64,000 nucleotides of DNA. Source: Actinomarinicola tropica (GTDB taxonomy: Bacteria > Actinomycetota > Acidimicrobiia > Acidimicrobiales > SKKL01). Positions 21,126-38,242 of this stretch are shown here, piece by piece. Positions within the stretch are counted from its first letter, which is position 1; each line of letters opens with the position of its first letter. Both the position numbers and the translations under genes were made by a program. The notes below the pieces were generated by a model that was not told where the DNA came from, did no database searches, and was given only the letters and a program-made list of their open reading frames with translations. The stretch spans positions 3,065,001 to 3,129,000 of the forward strand of contig NZ_CP045851.1 in NCBI RefSeq assembly GCF_009650215.1, written 5' to 3'.

Positions 21126-21980
21126 TCAGCGACCGGCCGAGACCGCCGCGACGCGCGCCGCGTGCTCGGCCGCGAGGTCCGCCAGGTGGGTGGACGCAGG
21201 GGGCCGGGCGTGGTCGTGCGCGGGTTCGCCGTCGAAGCGCACCGTGCGCAGGGGCCACCCACCCACCTCGAGTCCGGCGGGCCCGGGGCGCACGTCGCGC
21301 TCGTGGCGGTTCCACGCCGAGAGGCCGAGGCCGAGGTCGGGCGTGGGGTGCGCACCGAACCACGACAGCCCGACGTCGAACGACGGCAGCGGCCGATCCC
21401 CCGCGTCGGTCCGCCCCTCGTCGCAGGAGCGGAGCAGCTGCTGCTTCCGCCAGCGGAGGAGCCGGCGCGCTCCGAGGGTGGACGGCCAGCTGATGAGGTC
21501 GGGGTCGTGGAACCCCTCCCGAGCGAGGTCGGACGAGGACGGCCAGCATCCGTCGTCGTCGAGGGGCACCGCCACGCGGGGGACGACGCTGACGCCGTCG
21601 CCGTCGGCGAGCTCGACGAAGTCGTCGAGTCGCCGGTACGTGCACGCGTCGTCGGGGAGGCTGAGGACGCGGCGGTGGCCTCGATCGAGCAGGGCGGACA
21701 CCCCCCAGGGGACGAGCGCTGTGCGCGCCCGGGCGACGCCGTGCACCGCCAGGAGGTCGCGGCGACGATCCGGCCGGAGGTCCAGCGCCCTCGCGTCGAG
21801 CTGCTCGACCGAGTCGGCGATGTCGACGGTGGCGCCGCGGAGCTGGTCGACCACCACGACCGCGACCGGCGCCTCCGGGTGGAAGGTCACGAAGGACTCG
21901 ACGGCGACGGCGGCCAGGTCGAGCCTGTCGCGCGAGGTCACGACCAGGGCGGCGAGCCCGGTGGTCCCCTCCAGGGGCAT
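21126..21980 (-). CDS. Glycosyltransferase-like protein with a degenerate nucleotide-sugar site
   Basis: A 284-residue soluble protein, last gene of a three-gene operon with a nucleotidyltransferase and a 4,6-dehydratase. Its order of elements follows the N-terminal GT-A domain of the large glycosyltransferase at 32107-34503: VESFVTFHPEAPVAVVVVD compares with SSFLEHHPGATLDVLVVD, RVLSLPDDACTY with MYLDPDIVVFD, and LSAWNRHERDV with AYWNLHERPL. The metal-binding D-x-D is replaced by PDD, so activity with a nucleotide-sugar is uncertain. No membrane segment. ATG 21980 overlaps the upstream stop by one base (TGATG). The substrate is unknown; a sugar-binding or glycosyltransferase role in surface polysaccharide is inferred from context. 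Confidence 0.75.
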   Translation of the reverse strand: MPLEGTTGLAALVVTSRDRLDLAAVAVESFVTFHPEAPVAVVVVDQLRGATVDIADSVEQLDARALDLRPDRRRDLLAVHGVARARTALVPWGVSALLDRGHRRVLSLPDDACTYRRLDDFVELADGDGVSVVPRVAVPLDDDGCWPSSSDLAREGFHDPDLISWPSTLGARRLLRWRKQQLLRSCDEGRTDAGDRPLPSFDVGLSWFGAHPTPDLGLGLSAWNRHERDVRPGPAGLEVGGWPLRTVRFDGEPAHDHARPPASTHLADLAAEHAARVAAVSAGR

Positions 21981-28863: not shown

Positions 28864-29942
28864 AGGTCCTGACCGTCCTCGGCACCCGGCCCGAGATCAT
28901 CCGCCTGTCGCTCATCATCGAGGCGCTCGACGACGCTGTCGACCACGTCGTCGTCGACACCGGGCAGAACCCGGATCCCGCGCTGTCGACCGCCTTCTAC
29001 GAGGAGCTGGAGCTGCGAGCGCCGGACCACCGACTCGACCTGCCGGCGGGACGCGTCGGCCGGCGCCTCGGTGCTGTCCTGGGAGGTGTCGACGAGCTGC
29101 TCGCCGCGGAGCAGCCGGACCGCGTCGTCGTGCTCGGCGACACCGACAGCGCCATGGCAGCCATCGTGGCCAAGCGCGCCGGCATCCCCGTCGTCCACCT
29201 CGAGGCGGGCAACCGGTGCTTCGACGACCGCGTCCCCGAAGAGGTCAACCGGAGGGTGATCGACCACGCCTCGGACCTCCTCCTCCCCTACACCGAGCGC
29301 AGCCGCGACCACCTCCGCGACGAGGGGATCCCCTCGTCGCACATCGTCGTGAGCGGCAACCCGATCCACGAGGTGATGCAGCACCACGCCGCCCGCATCG
29401 AGAGCAGCGACGTCCTGGCACGGCTCGGGCTCGATCACGGCGGCTACGGGCTCGCCACGATCCACCGGCAGGAGAACGTCGACGACCCGCGCCGCCTCGA
29501 CGCCCTCGCCCGGTCGCTCGACGCCGCGGCCGCCGAGCTCGGCGCACCGATCGTCCTCAGCGTGCACCCCCGAACCGCCGACCGCCTCGCGGCGGCGGGC
29601 CTCGACGTCAGCGAGCGGATCATCGCCTCGCCTCCCTTCGGCTTCGCCGACTTCGTGCGCCTCGAGGCCGGCGCCCGCATCGTCTGCACCGACAGCGGCA
29701 CCGTGCAGGAGGAGTGCTGCCTGCTCGGGGTCCCCGCCGTCACGCTGCGCGACTCGACCGAACGTCCTGAGACCGTCGAGTGCGGCAGCAACGTCGTGAG
29801 CGGGGTGGAACCCGACGCCGTCGTCGCGGCCGTGCGGCTCCAGCTCCGACGGCCGCGGGCGTGGACACCGCCGGGTGAGTACCTGCGCGACGACGTCAGC
29901 GCCACCGTCGCCGGGGTGGTGACCGGGCCGCTACCCGCCTGA
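28860..29942 (+). CDS. wecB: UDP-N-acetylglucosamine 2-epimerase, WecB/FnlC family
   Basis: Epimerises C2 of a UDP-N-acetylhexosamine through a GT-B-like fold. The 360-residue protein has TVLGTRPEIIRLS near residue 5, GDTDSAMAA near 93, HLEAGNRCFDDRVPEEVNRR near 115, ATIHRQENVDD near 198 and the UDP-binding TDSGTVQEECCLLGVP near 278. In this operon the substrate is probably not UDP-GlcNAc but the UDP-L-sugar made by the two preceding SDR enzymes, as for FnlC/CapG/WbvD. ATGA overlap with the upstream gene. The 3' end overlaps the convergent methyltransferase gene by 12 bases. Confidence 0.93.
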   Translation: MKVLTVLGTRPEIIRLSLIIEALDDAVDHVVVDTGQNPDPALSTAFYEELELRAPDHRLDLPAGRVGRRLGAVLGGVDELLAAEQPDRVVVLGDTDSAMAAIVAKRAGIPVVHLEAGNRCFDDRVPEEVNRRVIDHASDLLLPYTERSRDHLRDEGIPSSHIVVSGNPIHEVMQHHAARIESSDVLARLGLDHGGYGLATIHRQENVDDPRRLDALARSLDAAAAELGAPIVLSVHPRTADRLAAAGLDVSERIIASPPFGFADFVRLEAGARIVCTDSGTVQEECCLLGVPAVTLRDSTERPETVECGSNVVSGVEPDAVVAAVRLQLRRPRAWTPPGEYLRDDVSATVAGVVTGPLPA

Positions 29943-31652
29943 CGACGCGCGGCCCACGCGGTGGGCGTCGGGCACGTGTCCGGCGCGGACGACGCCGGTC
30001 GGAGCGTCGTCGTCAGGCAGGGTCGCCCCGGCGCGCGGGTCGTGGTCGTGGACGATCCCCATCTGCCACTGGAAGCCGCGAACCTCAGGCGCTCGCGCCG
30101 TGGCGAGCGCGAGGCCCCGCCGCTCCAGGGCGTCCAGGAACCACGACCGCTCGTAGATCACGGCGTTCGTCGGGTCGTGCTCGTTGACGAACAGCGCGTG
30201 CTGGTCCTCCTGGAGCATCGGGAAGCCGACCCGGTCGAAGAGGAACCAGGTCGTCCACGCGATGCCGTCGTCGGCGAGCACGCGGGCCATCTCGTCGAGG
30301 TAGTGGTCGACCGAGGACGGGAGGACGTGGGTGAACACCGACAGCGCGAGGAAGAGCGTCACGTCGCCGTCCGCCACCGGGAACGGCAGGTGCGGCGGCT
30401 TGTCGGCACCGGGGTTGAAGCCGGGGTTGTGGACGTCGTGGTGCTCGAAGCGGAAGTGCTCGTCGAACGGCTCGAGCCGGCGCTGGCACCACTCGACCAT
30501 TCCGAGGTGCAGGTCGAGGCCGAGGTACCGGCCAGGGCGGGGCGTCTGCTGGAGGAGCTTGCGCGCGTTGCGCCCGCAGCCGCTCCCCCAGTCGAGGACG
30601 AACCGGTAGGCCTCGACCGGCACGTCGTCGCCGAGGAGCAGCGCGCCGTCGGGGTTGTCGAACGCCTCCACGTCGGTCGGGCCGACGAGCGTCCGCATCT
30701 CGATCGGCGGCACGGGCAGCGGCTCGCCCTCGACGGGAGCCGTGTGCTCCGCCCGCCGGGGCGGGACGGTGGTCGGTGGTGCCGCGCCCGCGCTCGGAGC
30801 AGGCGGCGCCGGTGCCGCATCGGAGGTGCCCTCGGCGACCGCCCCGAGCGCGGCGGCCTCGTCGGCCAGGTTCCGCAGGTGGAGCAGGATCCCGTCGAGC
30901 TCGGCCTCGGCCTCCAGTCGGGCACGCAGCAGGACGCGGCGCTCGCCTTCGGCCGCCGCGACGGTCGACACCCACCGGTGCGGCTCGGCCCCGTCGAACA
31001 CGTTGGCGGGCACGGACAGGGCGGCGAGTGCCTCGTCGTCGTCGGCGCGCGCGTAGAAGCGGTTGAGCCCGTCGAAGAGCGCACAGGCGTACCCCGCCTC
31101 GAGGAGGATCGGCTCCCAGGAGTCGTGGTCGGGCGTCGGCGAGTTGGGCTCGGTCGCCTCGACGACGACCACGCGGATGTCGACCGCATCCCAGTCCACG
31201 GCGGACAGGACCGCACGCTCGTGGCCCTCCACGTCCACCTTCAGGAAGTCGGCGCGCGCGATGCCGTGCTCGGCGAGGAGCGCGTCGAGCCGCTCCACGG
31301 GCACCTCCTCCGAGGTGAGCACCTGGCCCTCACGCCGGTAGCGCGCCGCGACGTCGTCCTCCAACGTGGAGCCGCCACGGTTCTCAGGCGGGCCGACGTG
31401 GAGGACAGCGGTGCCCGCACGATCGCTCAGCGCGACGCGTTCGTTGATGTCGTCGGGACGCTGCTCGACGAGCAGCTCGTGCCACTCGGCCAGCGGCTCG
31501 ACGTTGAGCCCGCGCCAGCCCCGCTCGGAGAAGTGCTGGGTCACCGAGTCGTGCACCGGGTGCCCGGCGCCGACGTCGATCCAGAAGCCGTCGTCGCCGG
31601 TGAAGAGCCGAGCGAGGACGACGTCCTCGCCGTTCTGGGCGTAGGAGATCAC
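29931..31652 (-). CDS. Two-domain methyltransferase: FkbM family plus class I SAM methyltransferase
   Basis: A 573-residue fusion. Residues 1-240 are an FkbM domain: ISYAQNGEDVVLARLF at the start, FWIDVGAGHPVHDSVT near 24 (SAM site), and FLKVDVEGHERAVL near 136. A Pro/Ala-rich linker covers about 280-325. The C-terminal 240 residues are a second SAM-dependent domain with FVLDWGSGCGRNARKLL near 349, GLDLHLGMVEWC, and LSVFTHVLPSS near 430. It probably O-methylates two positions, or two sugars, of the surface glycan. GTG 31652 overlaps the upstream stop (GTGA). It is the last gene of a three-gene operon and converges on wecB. Confidence 0.88.
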   Translation of the reverse strand: MISYAQNGEDVVLARLFTGDDGFWIDVGAGHPVHDSVTQHFSERGWRGLNVEPLAEWHELLVEQRPDDINERVALSDRAGTAVLHVGPPENRGGSTLEDDVAARYRREGQVLTSEEVPVERLDALLAEHGIARADFLKVDVEGHERAVLSAVDWDAVDIRVVVVEATEPNSPTPDHDSWEPILLEAGYACALFDGLNRFYARADDDEALAALSVPANVFDGAEPHRWVSTVAAAEGERRVLLRARLEAEAELDGILLHLRNLADEAAALGAVAEGTSDAAPAPPAPSAGAAPPTTVPPRRAEHTAPVEGEPLPVPPIEMRTLVGPTDVEAFDNPDGALLLGDDVPVEAYRFVLDWGSGCGRNARKLLQQTPRPGRYLGLDLHLGMVEWCQRRLEPFDEHFRFEHHDVHNPGFNPGADKPPHLPFPVADGDVTLFLALSVFTHVLPSSVDHYLDEMARVLADDGIAWTTWFLFDRVGFPMLQEDQHALFVNEHDPTNAVIYERSWFLDALERRGLALATARAPEVRGFQWQMGIVHDHDPRAGATLPDDDAPTGVVRAGHVPDAHRVGRASSGG

Positions 31653-32110
31653 CGGTGCCGGATCCTCCGGGCCACCGCGCCGATCGCCCAACGGGGGTCG
31701 GCGACGGCGTGCCGCAGCCGGCCGTAGGTGCGACGCCACGGGGCGAGGAGCCGCATCGTGCGGGTGGCGTGGATGGCGTCGACCTCGGTCCGCAGCGCGT
31801 CGCGCTCGGCGCGCAGCCGGACGAGCTCGTCGCCGAGCGTCCGCACCGCCGGTGGCAGGCCCTCGAGCCGGCCGGCGCGCAGAGCCTCGTCGACCTCGGC
31901 GTCGCGGTGGAGCCGCACGACGTCGGGGTCCGCCGCCGCCTGCGTGGCGAGCGCAGCGCGCAAGGCGTCCGCCTCGGCCTCCAGGGCCGCGATCCGGCTC
32001 GCCTGCAGGCGCAGCGCCGTTCCCACGGTGTCGACGAGCCGCCGCGCCTCGGGCACCTGGGCGTGCAGCCGCGGCGCAGGCGCGACCGCGTCGACCTCCG
32101 ACGTGCTCAT
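31649..32110 (-). CDS. Small coiled-coil protein of the polysaccharide locus
   Basis: A 153-residue protein made almost entirely of heptad helix (RIAALEAEADALRAALAT, LGDELVRLRAERDALRTEVD). The C-terminus TRTMRLLAPWRRTYGRLR resembles the short basic amphipathic tail found after coiled coils in many polysaccharide glycosyltransferases and methyltransferases, which may touch the membrane. No enzymatic motif. It overlaps the upstream glycosyltransferase (ATGA) and the downstream methyltransferase (GTGA), so a scaffold or chain-length ruler for these enzymes is the likely role. A TAGGGT box seven bases before ATG 32110 suggests an additional internal promoter. Confidence 0.82.
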   Translation of the reverse strand: MSTSEVDAVAPAPRLHAQVPEARRLVDTVGTALRLQASRIAALEAEADALRAALATQAAADPDVVRLHRDAEVDEALRAGRLEGLPPAVRTLGDELVRLRAERDALRTEVDAIHATRTMRLLAPWRRTYGRLRHAVADPRWAIGAVARRIRHR

Positions 32111-34440
32111 GCCGCCGACCCTACCCTTCGTGACGATCTGGCCTCGCTGAGCGCCAGGACGCGGTCGCGGAGCCATGCGCCGGCTCGCTCCGCCGAGTGC
32201 CGATCCCTCACGTCACGCTGGGCCTGCAGCCCGAGGCGTCGCGCCAGGACCGGGTCGTCGACGAGCGCCCGCATCGCCGACGTCGCGGCGGACAGGTCGG
32301 GCTCGGCCCACGTGGCGGCGGGGTCGTAGGGCGGGTTGCCGGCGCCGACCGGGACGCGCTCGTAGGGCACGAGGATGCTGTTCTCCGGCGTCATGAACTG
32401 GAGGTTGCCGGAGTAGCCGGTCGCCACGACCGGCTTCCCGGCCGCCATCGCCGAGGCCATCGTCAACCCGTAGCCCTCGGAGCGGTGCAGGGACACGTAG
32501 GCGTCGGTGTGGTGGACGAGCGCCGACATCCGCAAGCGTGAGAGGTACCCGTCGCGGATCTCGACGTCGGGGCGGCCTCGCGCCATCGAGCGGAGTCGCT
32601 CGAGCTCGGTCCGGGCCGAGTCGCCGTTGATCGACTTGACGATCAGGTGCGTGCCGTCGTCCGGTCCGAAGGCATCGAGGTACGCCTGCAGGACGCCGGT
32701 GGGGTTCTTGCGGCCGGGCACGCTGAACGCGTCGAAGTGGAAGCCGAACACGAAGGGCCCGTCGGGAAGCCCGACGTCCGCTCGGGTCAGGTGCGTGGGT
32801 GGCGGCGGCTCGACGACGAGGGGCATGACCCGCACCGGGCACGGAGCGTGCGGCCGCAGAGCCGCGGCGACGAACTCGCTCGCCACCCAGAGCTCGTCGA
32901 CGTGGCCGAACGAGCCGTGCAGCGCGGGCGGGAACTCCTCGAGCTCCCAGAACCACACGCCGACGCGGACCTGCCCGGCGTCGAACGCGCCCGGCGCGTC
33001 GGCGACGAGACGGGGGGTCGAATCGGCGTTCACGCACATCACCGAGACGGCGTAGGGCCACTCGCTCGAGCGGCCGACGTCCTCGGCGACGCGACGTGTG
33101 GGGTCGTGCTGGCGGGAGTGCGTCGCGGTGTAGCGGTGGATCGTGTGGGGCACGGACCCCGCTTCCGCGGCCCGGACGACGAGCCGACCGACCTCCCCGA
33201 CACCGAGCTCGGCTCCCATGTAGCCGAGGACGTTCGCGCCCGGGCGCAGGCACCGGGTCGAGGGCGCCTCGTCGGACGCGCCCACCAGGAGGTGGCCGTA
33301 CCGGTCCTGGTACCACTCGTCGTGCGCGGCCCACGCCGAGAGCCCGGCGCCCCCCTGGCCCGCCAGGTCGCCGAAGGCGACCTGCAGGTCGACCCGCATG
33401 GTCCACACCATGCGTTCGAGACGGGTGACGACCCCGCCGGGGTGGGCGACGACCGGCGCGTTCAGCCATCGCAGCACGGCATCGGGATCCTCGGGCGAGA
33501 ACGGCTCGGGCAGCTCACCGTCGGCGGGGTCGGGTTGGAGCAGCGCCGTGCGGAACGTGCGCCTGACCTCCAGGGGGATCGGTCCCCCTCCCATGCGGTC
33601 GTACCCGTACGGTCGGTCGCCGTCGCCGCCGACGTGGCGCAGCTGCTCCGCGTAGCGCTGGGCCAGCTCGGCGAGGACCGGCTGGTCGCTGAGCAGGACG
33701 CGCGGCTCTCCGAGCGTGTGCCGAGACAGGAGGTGGGGGCTCGCCGGGTCGAAGCCGCTGAGGTGGAGGAACCGGAGCGTGGCGCCACCGGCGAGGACGC
33801 GCCCGTCGTGGTCACGGGAGAGCGGACGCTCGTGCAGGTTCCAGTAGGCGACGTTCCAGCCCGGGTCCCGCACGACGTGGTGGTCGAACAGGGCGGGGAC
33901 GAAGTCGATCCACCGCTGGTCCGTGAACATCCCCGACGCCGGCTCGTTGCACGCGTGGTGGACGGTGCGTTCGTGCCACCAGTCGAGGAAGCCCTCGGCG
34001 CCCGGGCCGACAGCGATGAACCCGAGGTTGAACTGCCCGGCGACCAGGAGGTCCTCGTCCCGCACCCGAGCGCCGTCGCGCGGGAGGGGCGACAGGACGT
34101 GCGGGGTGAGCACGATGGGCGTGCGGCGGGCAAGGTCGTGCGCGGCCTCGATCGAGTCGAAGACGACGATGTCGGGATCGAGGTACATCACGGGCTCGCC
34201 GTAGCGCTCGAGGAGGTGGCGCAGCAGCGCCGGCTTCACCGCGGTCGCCATCTCGGTGACGTCGTAGATCATCGCCATGTCGTGCACGGTCCTGCGGCCG
34301 ATGCCGAGGTCCTCGGTGCCGAGCACCGATGTGCCCGGGGCCACCGGTTCGAGCGGGGGCGCCTCCGGCGCCTCGCTGTCGACGACGAGCACGTCGAGGG
34401 TCGCCCCCGGGTGGTGCTCGAGGAAGGACGAGGCGAGCAC
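32107..34440 (-). CDS. Large two-domain glycosyltransferase (GT-A-like plus GT4), true start unclear
   Basis: A bifunctional glycosyltransferase. Residues 1-330 are a GT-A-like domain: SSFLEHHPGATLDVLVVD, YLDPDIVVFD with the D-x-D near residue 86, GQFNLGFIAVG and AYWNLHERPLSR. Residues 400-760 are a GT-B/GT4 domain: GVWFWELEEFPPALHGSF, GFHFDAFSVPGRKNP, and the donor motif HRSEGYGLTMASAMAAGKPV. It probably adds two consecutive sugars. The only standard start in the frame is GTG 34440, but coding similarity continues upstream (HACTIIAANYQSRARVLA) to a stop at 34504. The natural start is probably the codon at 34494-34492, which reads ATC, behind a TAGGTT box. First gene of a three-gene operon. 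Confidence 0.88.
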   Translation of the reverse strand: MLASSFLEHHPGATLDVLVVDSEAPEAPPLEPVAPGTSVLGTEDLGIGRRTVHDMAMIYDVTEMATAVKPALLRHLLERYGEPVMYLDPDIVVFDSIEAAHDLARRTPIVLTPHVLSPLPRDGARVRDEDLLVAGQFNLGFIAVGPGAEGFLDWWHERTVHHACNEPASGMFTDQRWIDFVPALFDHHVVRDPGWNVAYWNLHERPLSRDHDGRVLAGGATLRFLHLSGFDPASPHLLSRHTLGEPRVLLSDQPVLAELAQRYAEQLRHVGGDGDRPYGYDRMGGGPIPLEVRRTFRTALLQPDPADGELPEPFSPEDPDAVLRWLNAPVVAHPGGVVTRLERMVWTMRVDLQVAFGDLAGQGGAGLSAWAAHDEWYQDRYGHLLVGASDEAPSTRCLRPGANVLGYMGAELGVGEVGRLVVRAAEAGSVPHTIHRYTATHSRQHDPTRRVAEDVGRSSEWPYAVSVMCVNADSTPRLVADAPGAFDAGQVRVGVWFWELEEFPPALHGSFGHVDELWVASEFVAAALRPHAPCPVRVMPLVVEPPPPTHLTRADVGLPDGPFVFGFHFDAFSVPGRKNPTGVLQAYLDAFGPDDGTHLIVKSINGDSARTELERLRSMARGRPDVEIRDGYLSRLRMSALVHHTDAYVSLHRSEGYGLTMASAMAAGKPVVATGYSGNLQFMTPENSILVPYERVPVGAGNPPYDPAATWAEPDLSAATSAMRALVDDPVLARRLGLQAQRDVRDRHSAERAGAWLRDRVLALSEARSSRRVGSAA
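32118..32123 (-). promoter_or_regulatory. Putative internal leaderless -10 box
   Basis: TAGGGT inside the last codons of the large glycosyltransferase gene, seven bases before ATG 32110 of the coiled-coil gene. Confidence 0.35.
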
Positions 34441-34500
34441 CCGGGCCCGCGACTGGTAGTTGGCGGCGATGATCGTGCAGGCGTGGACAGCGATGGTCGG

Positions 34501-34506
34501 AACCTA
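34501..34506 (-). promoter_or_regulatory. Putative leaderless -10 box of the large glycosyltransferase
   Basis: TAGGTT on the minus strand. Six bases downstream, where every similar promoter here has ATG or GTG, the sequence is ATC (34494-34492). Confidence 0.45.
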
Positions 34507-34526
34507 GTCCGCCCCTGCCGGAGCGA

Positions 34527-36035
34527 TCAGGGACGGCGCACGCCGGCTGCGTCGGCGAGGCGGTCGCGCCCCTCCGACTTGGCTCGGTACAGCCGACGGT
34601 CGGCGGCGCGCAGAAGCCCGTCGGCGTCGTGGCCCGTCGCCGGCTCGTCCTCGGTCGTCGCGACCCCTGCGCTGACCGTCAGGTGGAGCGACTGACCCTC
34701 GACGTCGACGGCACGCTCCCTGACGGACGCGACGATCCGACCGACGATCGCGCGGGCACCGTCCTGGTCCGTGTCCGGCAGGGCGATGACGAACTCCTCA
34801 CCGCCGAACCGGGCGACGACGTCGGTGCCCCGCGTCAGCTCGGTCAGCTGCTCTGCGAGGCAACGCAGCGCCCCGTCGCCCACGGCGTGCCCGAGGCGGT
34901 CGTTCACGACCTTGAAGTGGTCGATGTCGATCATCGCCACCGAGTAGGGCGCGCCCGTGCGACGGTGGTGCCCGGCCATCTCCGCGAGGCGCGGCAGCAG
35001 GTAGCGGCGGTTGTGGAGCCCGGTCAGCGGGTCGCGGACCGAGTGCTCGACCAGCTCGCGCTCCAGGCGGTGACGAGCCACGGCACCGGCGAGCAGCCCG
35101 GCGACGACGACGAGCAGATCGGTCTCCGCCGAGGACCAGTCGCGGGCGCGATCGGCGTCGATGCCGACGAACCCCTCCACGCGGCCGTGGATCTGGATGG
35201 GGACGCACAACATGGCTCGCACGCCCTGGGAGCTCAGGTACGACCGCTCGGCGACGGCCTCGGCCGGCAGGCGGTCGACGTCGTCGACCGCGAGGACCCG
35301 GCCCGCCCGGACGAGCTGGGCCATCTGGTCGCGCCACCAGCCGTACTGCAGCAGGGAGCCGTCGCGCTCCTGCGCGATGAGCGACGGGACGCCCGGCCGA
35401 CACCACTCGTGGGTGTCGGTGGCCCGGCTGAGCTCGTCGTCGAGCTCGCACAGGTACGTGCGTGCGGCGTCGAAGAAGTCGCCGACCGCCTCGAGCACGC
35501 GGGAGATCGACGCGTCGAGGTCCTCCGCGAGGCCTGAGGTCAGGAGCTCGGCCGACAGCTCCGCGATCAGCCGCTGGTAGCGGGCGTGCTCGGCGTGCTC
35601 CGCCTCGCGGGCCCGCAGACCCTCCTCCAGCTCCTTGTGCTCGTGGATGTCGTTGAGCTGCCCGTACCAGAGGACGGCGCCTCCCTCCTCCTCCTCGGGG
35701 ACGGCGAGCGCGTCGAACCAGCGGACGGTGCCGTCGGCGAGGTGGAGGCGGGCCTCCTCGTGCCACGGGGTGAGGCGTCGCGCCGAGTGGGAGATGCTGG
35801 CGATGACCCGTCGGCGGTCCTCGGGGTCGATGATCTCGAACATCGGCGTGGCATCGCGCGCGAGCTCGTCGGGGTCGAGCCCGAGCAGGGGCACGATCCG
35901 GTCGCCGATGAACGGGAAGCGGTGGGTCGTGCGGTCGTCGGAGACCTCGTAGCTGAAGATGACACCCGGGAGCGCGGCCGCGAGCCGTCGGAACGCGTCG
36001 GCCTCGACGTCGCTCGATCCTCCGGTCGTGCTCAC
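34527..36035 (-). CDS. Diguanylate cyclase with PAS and GAF sensor domains
   Basis: Makes the second messenger cyclic di-GMP from two GTP. The 502-residue soluble protein has a PAS domain (residues about 15-140: FSYEVSDDRTTHRFPFIGD, ending in QLNDIHEHK), a short coiled coil, a GAF domain (155-325) and a GGDEF domain (340-495) with DPLTGLHNRRYLLPRL, FGGEEF near residue 410 (active site) and an RGTD five residues before it, the product-inhibition site. The GGEEF form is active in known enzymes. No EAL domain and no membrane helix. GTG 36035 has GAGG-type pairing upstream, with GTG 36041 as the alternative. Signal unknown. It is divergent from glgX. Confidence 0.92.
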   Translation of the reverse strand: MSTTGGSSDVEADAFRRLAAALPGVIFSYEVSDDRTTHRFPFIGDRIVPLLGLDPDELARDATPMFEIIDPEDRRRVIASISHSARRLTPWHEEARLHLADGTVRWFDALAVPEEEEGGAVLWYGQLNDIHEHKELEEGLRAREAEHAEHARYQRLIAELSAELLTSGLAEDLDASISRVLEAVGDFFDAARTYLCELDDELSRATDTHEWCRPGVPSLIAQERDGSLLQYGWWRDQMAQLVRAGRVLAVDDVDRLPAEAVAERSYLSSQGVRAMLCVPIQIHGRVEGFVGIDADRARDWSSAETDLLVVVAGLLAGAVARHRLERELVEHSVRDPLTGLHNRRYLLPRLAEMAGHHRRTGAPYSVAMIDIDHFKVVNDRLGHAVGDGALRCLAEQLTELTRGTDVVARFGGEEFVIALPDTDQDGARAIVGRIVASVRERAVDVEGQSLHLTVSAGVATTEDEPATGHDADGLLRAADRRLYRAKSEGRDRLADAAGVRRP

Positions 36036-36067
36036 CCTCACCTCACACGTGCCAGTCCCCGGCGGGA

Positions 36068-36073
36068 ACCGTA
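36068..36073 (-). promoter_or_regulatory. Possible -10 box for the diguanylate cyclase gene
   Basis: TACGGT about 32 bases before GTG 36035, giving a short leader that contains GAGGTGAG. Confidence 0.25.
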
Positions 36074-36109
36074 CTCCGTACAGCTCTCGGGCCACAGGAC
36101 CGAGGCTCC

Positions 36110-36115
36110 TAGAGT
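36110..36115 (+). promoter_or_regulatory. Putative leaderless -10 box for glgX
   Basis: TAGAGT, seven bases before GTG 36123. An in-frame GTG at 36114 overlaps the box and is therefore unlikely to be the start. Confidence 0.5.
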
Positions 36116-36122
36116 GACCGCC

Positions 36123-38242
<2,120 letters not shown>

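Follow-up and report, generated by a model that had tools for sequence, protein, structure and literature searches.

The locus and its reading frame

The window, by which we mean the whole 64,000-nucleotide stretch of Actinomarinicola tropica DNA that was analysed, carries on its minus strand a two-part glycosyltransferase frame that can be followed upstream as far as an ATC codon (Table 1). Re-reading of the sequence returned the same letters and positions for the stop, the box, the ATC and the GTG at 34440 as the original prediction had given. An in-frame stop TAG (34506-34504) forms the first part of the box TAGGTT, and the box is followed by ccgacc and then by the ATC. From the stop onwards the codons are GTT CCG ACC ATC GCT GTC CAC GCC TGC ACG ATC, and the stretch continues with ATC GCC GCC AAC TAC CAG TCG CGG GCC CGG up to the first standard in-frame start, GTG 34440, which is codon 19 if the ATC is taken as codon 1. 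The codon listing also bore out the statement that ATG, GTG, TTG and CTG are all absent in frame between this stop and GTG 34440. Close to the ATC, only the AGG within the box looks Shine-Dalgarno-like by eye.

The glycosyltransferase frame is intact and free of signs of decay. Its 795 codons rank at percentile 64 of 512 frames by per-codon coding score, with a GC3 of 0.94, and the stretch between the ATC and GTG 34440 scores as coding in its own right (12.4 bits). The C-terminal GT4-type domain corresponds to PF13692 (Pfam, 33 bits against a cut-off of 27, residues 624-711). For the N-terminal part, up to residue 613, neither Pfam (at 0.001) nor NCBIfam (at 0.01) gave a match. The DPD motif of the N-terminal part is invariant across six aligned sequences, and a distant match to this part (27% identity) is present elsewhere in the window, at 21207-21929 on the minus strand.

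Upstream, the frame of a diguanylate cyclase ends 32 bases before the ATC, so that co-transcription of the two genes is possible. This neighbour was also tried as a synteny marker and abandoned, as three other genomes of the family (G001-G003) yielded only other GGDEF-domain proteins, the best of them 43% identical and in the C-terminal part.

Table 1. Positions of the features discussed (plain numbers refer to the window; L numbers denote other stretches)
Feature	Location	Strand	Remarks	Basis
Diguanylate cyclase frame	34527..36458	-	PAS, GAF and GGDEF domains; upstream	Frame list, Pfam
TAGGTT box	34501..34506	-	TANNNT-type, -10-like; its TAG doubles as the frame-bounding stop	Sequence; box class with ATG/GTG 6-8 bases on
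ATC	34492..34494	-	Family start-codon column, six bases past box	Sequence, alignment columns
GTC	34486..34488	-	Two codons past ATC; alternative non-canonical start candidate	Sequence, alignment
GTG	34438..34440	-	First standard start in frame; by homology a Val codon within the fold	Sequence, homologues
Two-part glycosyltransferase frame	32107..34494	-	795 residues, ATC to stop codon; N-terminal DPD motif, C-terminal GT4-like domain	Frame list, Pfam, alignment
175-aa frame	31649..32176	-	No Pfam match; downstream, overlaps glycosyltransferase end	Frame list, Pfam
Methyltransferase frame	29931..31739	-	FkbM-type and other methyltransferase domains; downstream	Frame list, Pfam
infA (IF1)	L069:8062-8283	+	ATA in start column here; also L159-L188, L199-L228	Pfam IF-1
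rsfS	L152:5318-5707	-	ATC start column; relatives L190, L191	Pfam RsfS
rnc	L075:17260-18066	+	CTGATC at N-terminus; relatives L116-L118	Pfam RNase III
Ferredoxin-reductase-like gene	L083:6502-7701	-	CTG start column; relative L128	

Homologues and the start-codon column

Homologues of the glycosyltransferase were drawn from 59 related genomes, 397 genomes of the order, 20 extra stretches (matches of the 397-genome search that had no locus) and a wider search of genome contigs; several weak matches from the 397-genome search, and loci in which the C-terminal part alone was covered, were left unread. Removal of six duplicate loci left 55, and L007, L031 and L033 were dropped as their N-termini did not align, giving 51 homologues, paralogues from one genome included, to compare with the present gene. 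A standard start stands in the column of the ATC in 12 of the 51 (ATG in four, GTG in seven and TTG in one), and in 45 an ATG, GTG or TTG is found no more than nine codons upstream of a conserved Cys. Judged from these columns, the ATC occupies a start-codon column of its family. Only three of the 52 sequences are without a standard start within 20 codons, namely this gene, L037 and L059, and the last of these sits inside a much longer frame. Of the features expected in an AUC-start gene, the gene has an ATC in a start column shared with its homologues and lacks a standard start close by. L037, a homologue from G068 that is 51% identical over the N-terminal part and likewise has no standard start near its N-terminus, offers CTG at -10, ACG at -4 and TTG at -33 as candidates.

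The similarity to the family that had been claimed ahead of GTG 34440 is real. In a six-sequence alignment the columns C6, I8, A10, N12, Y13, A17 and R18 are invariant and precede this codon, V19 being the GTG itself, and the coding score of the stretch agrees. A start at GTG 34440 would cost the protein these seven invariant residues and exchange an eighth, and it was consequently rejected as the true start, as the original prediction had also held. GTG is present in this column (+13) in 19 of the 52 sequences, this gene counted, and most of the homologues concerned possess a start of their own further upstream. The other codon at which translation might begin is the GTC two codons past the ATC. 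In 12 of the 52 sequences this column is where the start codon closest to the conserved Cys falls, and a GTC start is described for Streptomyces sigR (PMC5472188). However, this GTC lies 12 bases past the box, beyond the range of 6-8, and a truncated protein begun at GTG 34440 meets the objection just given, so that a start at either codon appears very unlikely.

The N-terminal part was unmatched in G001-G003 (G001 being about 94% complete), two of which show weak matches to the GT4 part. The gene therefore seems to be dispensable, since three other genomes of its family were searched and are without it. Among genome contigs at large, the wider search for close relatives gave four distant matches of 32-41% identity.

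Leaderless-type boxes

The setting of the box was examined in 864 kb of this genome (the window and 40 further stretches), on both strands. The scan gave 465 TANNNT boxes, of which 188 are followed by ATG or GTG at a gap of 6-8 bases. These codons occur 63 times at gap 6, 84 times at gap 7 and 41 times at gap 8, in comparison with 6 to 15 times at each of the other gaps from 3 to 13. From this excess it follows that leaderless-type genes are a real class in this genome and that a gap of 6 is usual within it. TAGGTT, six bases ahead of the ATC, has the form and distance of such a box, although the gene departs from the class in its codon, which is neither ATG nor GTG. With 465 boxes over the two strands of 864 kb and three usual gaps, any given base has a chance of about 8e-4 of being preceded by a TANNNT box at such a gap; this is a genome average and may be higher between genes. 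The proposal that the box predicts a start exactly at the ATC thus holds in part: the distance is usual for leaderless genes and the codon reached lies in a start column of the family, but six bases is not a unique spacing, as gaps of 6, 7 and 8 are all usual.

ATC as such is not enriched after these boxes: the other gaps would lead one to expect about 14 occurrences at gaps 6-8, and 12 were found, seven of them at gap 6. At the same gaps TTG was found three times against about six expected and CTG 23 times against about 16, so clear enrichment is restricted to ATG and GTG. Over the whole genome the pattern TAGGNT-N6-ATC has four matches and its reversed form also four, whereas TAGGNT-N6-ATG has 31 against nine. 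In two of the four ATC sites the codon that follows is ATG or GTG, another site opens a frame that is apparently non-coding, and the fourth is the present gene. A genome-wide habit of using ATC after leaderless-type boxes was accordingly rejected, and on these counts the glycosyltransferase is a single case. When a coding frame and the absence of standard codons among the next ten were also required, ATC was left with two cases each at gaps 6, 9 and 13; the second case at gap 6 (L147) is contained in a long open frame, which we take to be dapF, and was dropped.

The description of the promoter as a perfect leaderless one did not survive, for nothing beyond the box supports it. The flank of the box scores low, at percentile 5 among leaderless-type sites and percentile 30 among random ones, by a profile that is weak. 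No -35 signal was found in the 188 leaderless-type sites, and for this reason the flank test says little.

These counts bear on the explanation that a recent substitution, one change from ATG to ATC, removed the start codon and left a gene that is silent or nearly so in this strain, its frame still intact because the loss is young. Work on Mycobacterium smegmatis describes a 5'-end ATG or GTG as necessary and sufficient for leaderless starts, CTG and TTG as poor, and ATC as a putative negative control (PMC4633059); at the present locus a leaderless-type box stands, at spacing 6, before that very control codon. Both this and the lack of ATC enrichment after boxes speak for a lost start, and the apparent dispensability of the gene points the same way. 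Against it stand 795 codons without another sign of decay, as well as the AUC, AUA and CUG in the start columns of other genes of the lineage described below. We regard a lost start as unlikely, though it is the strongest of the alternatives.

Unusual codons in the start columns of other genes of the lineage

The 512 coding frames in the 864 kb were screened for cases in which the coding signal reaches further upstream than the first ATG, GTG or TTG. There were 39 hits, many of them apparently false, and the glycosyltransferase gene was tenth among them. Four other hits, infA, rsfS, rnc and a ferredoxin-reductase-like gene, were traced into relatives.

For infA, 30 loci were read by eye out of 58 matches in 56 of the 59 genomes (G001 gave no match). 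The start column holds CTG in 29 of them, the remaining one being this genome, with ATA, and GGAG precedes the column in all 30; an automatic motif count returned 27 CTG, one ATA and two loci without the motif. A second set of 30 loci was read out of 147 matching genomes. It added CTG in five further genomes of the order, which makes 34 other genomes of the order read, all with CTG. In G412, of the same class and outside the order, the column holds GTA, and in 20 loci of other classes it holds GTG (11) or TTG (9), L223 having in addition an ATG two codons upstream.

In rsfS an ATC stands 15 codons ahead of the same column in the three family members with a match, this genome included (G000, G001 and G002; G003 gave no match), and neighbouring codons mostly differ among the three genomes. 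It is preceded by Shine-Dalgarno-like sequences, AGAGG, GAGAGG or GAAGGA, and no ATG, GTG or TTG was found in the 31 codons upstream in these genomes. ATC was absent from the start column in 30 further loci of the order; five of these (L235, L237, L244, L248 and L250) have CTG but no ATG, GTG or TTG in the 31 upstream codons, L237 having an ATC as well. For rnc, CTGATC is present in four of four family members amid diverged neighbours, with no ATG, GTG or TTG at the N-terminus here, and was not found in the other eight genomes searched. The start of rnc may be either the CTG or the ATC; in G002 there is also a TTG nine codons after the CTG. In this genome rnc directly follows a gene read as acpP. 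The ferredoxin-reductase-like gene has CTG in both members of the genus, and the same column holds GTG in G002 and G003, ATG in G009 and G014, and TTG in G022; in G005 and G051 an ATG lies three and four codons further upstream, respectively.

In this group, then, start columns retain AUC and CUG, and one of them holds AUA. Three more frames have coding signal upstream of their first ATG, GTG or TTG, perhaps reaching to a CTG, and were not counted as evidence for odd starts: a hydrolase (L074:7826-8662, minus strand), a family 2 glycosyltransferase (L150:3944-4837, minus strand) and a PAP2 gene (L143:6018-6791, plus strand). At L070:11428-13509 (minus strand) parts read as ClpP-like and crotonase-like lie in different frames, the ClpP-like frame being without a standard start, for which decay of the gene, a chimeric origin or a fault of assembly could account.

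A further explanation of the ATC is an error of base calling or assembly at a single position, by which an ATG came to be read as ATC. The two codons are one base apart, the three other family genomes searched are without the gene, and the frame-switching ClpP-like/crotonase-like gene in another stretch could be a signal of assembly trouble. The genome is nevertheless a single contig of 3.7 Mb. The odd starts seen in rsfS, rnc and the reductase recur in independently assembled genomes and so did not arise as errors here, and the ATA of infA is two bases removed from the CTG of its relatives, though one from a hypothetical ATG; these points bear on the genes concerned and not on base 34492. An error at this base is in our view quite unlikely, though more likely than a start at GTC or GTG 34440. 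Taken together, a lost start and a base error are about as likely as initiation at the ATC.

Discussion

It is suggested here, as the likeliest single reading but at somewhat less than an even chance, that ribosomes start translation of the glycosyltransferase at its ATC. The codon would be read with fMet and at low efficiency, in place of an ancestral ATG or GTG, and the product would begin fMet-AVHACTIIAANY, or AVHACT after removal of Met. Two transcripts could bring the codon to the ribosome: a leaderless one made from the TAGGTT box, with the ATC at its 5' end, or a longer, leadered one running in from the diguanylate cyclase gene. Through the odd start columns of the relatives, the case for AUC initiation looks better than the original prediction could have known. 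Such initiation is plausible, yet odd at a leaderless 5' end, and the use of ATG or GTG in the leaderless-type genes of this genome speaks against it there. The conflict with the leaderless rule would vanish if the transcript ran in from the upstream gene with a leader, or if the lineage truly differed in this respect. The ATC of the glycosyltransferase has a poorer Shine-Dalgarno match than that of rsfS. In M. smegmatis ATT also worked when a Shine-Dalgarno site was present, and CTG failed (PMC4633059).

Departures from the three common start codons are very rare. For 61,358 reconstructed AUG starts, a single switch to AUU and two switches to CUG are recorded, and AUC was never the outcome (PMC5622118).

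The gene infC encodes IF3, and its odd start codon (ATT in E. coli) serves autoregulation. AUC starts are already known, infC of Streptomyces being reported to have one (PMC5472188). Like the glycosyltransferase, it is an intact gene of a high-GC bacterium whose start position is occupied by ATC; however, the glycosyltransferase has no autoregulatory loop, unlike the gene of IF3. Streptomyces sigR resembles the glycosyltransferase as a gene other than an initiation factor with a rare start codon, in this case a GTC retained in 32 of 34 species (PMC5472188), but sigR has an extensive ribosome-binding site and there is none before the ATC of the glycosyltransferase. In box and spacing the locus is like the leaderless TANNNT genes of Actinobacteria (PMC3160421), and it differs from them in that such genes start with ATG or GTG, both in M. 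smegmatis (PMC4633059) and by enrichment here. If AUC does work on a leaderless mRNA, it would be an exception to the AUG-or-GUG rule of leaderless translation. A metabolic gene with AUC behind a leaderless box would add a new form to the known AUC starts, and our search of the open-access literature found no work joining "leaderless" and "AUC start codon".

What is new here, as the aligned columns indicate, is that a lineage keeps odd codons in start columns. It is possible, although we consider it unlikely, that the order has widened its functional set of start codons to CUG, AUC and AUA under constraint, the gene of IF1 included, and that AUC works leaderless in this genome. A gene finder that admits ATG, GTG and TTG alone would place the start of such genes wrongly or cut them short; the genes concerned here are those of IF1 throughout an order, and of RNase III and RsfS within a family.

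Compared with the ATC of the glycosyltransferase, the CTG start that infA shows throughout the order appears to be the more durable result. In the open-access literature we recognised no report on a CUG start of bacterial infA. The chloroplast gene (PMC9845219) is comparable as an IF1 gene with a weak start codon, UUG, and it differs in that the genomes of the order that were read have CTG and this genome ATA. By analogy with infC, a conserved near-cognate start suggests that the level of IF1 may be set by start-codon stringency. The infC gene of this genome appears to start with GTG.
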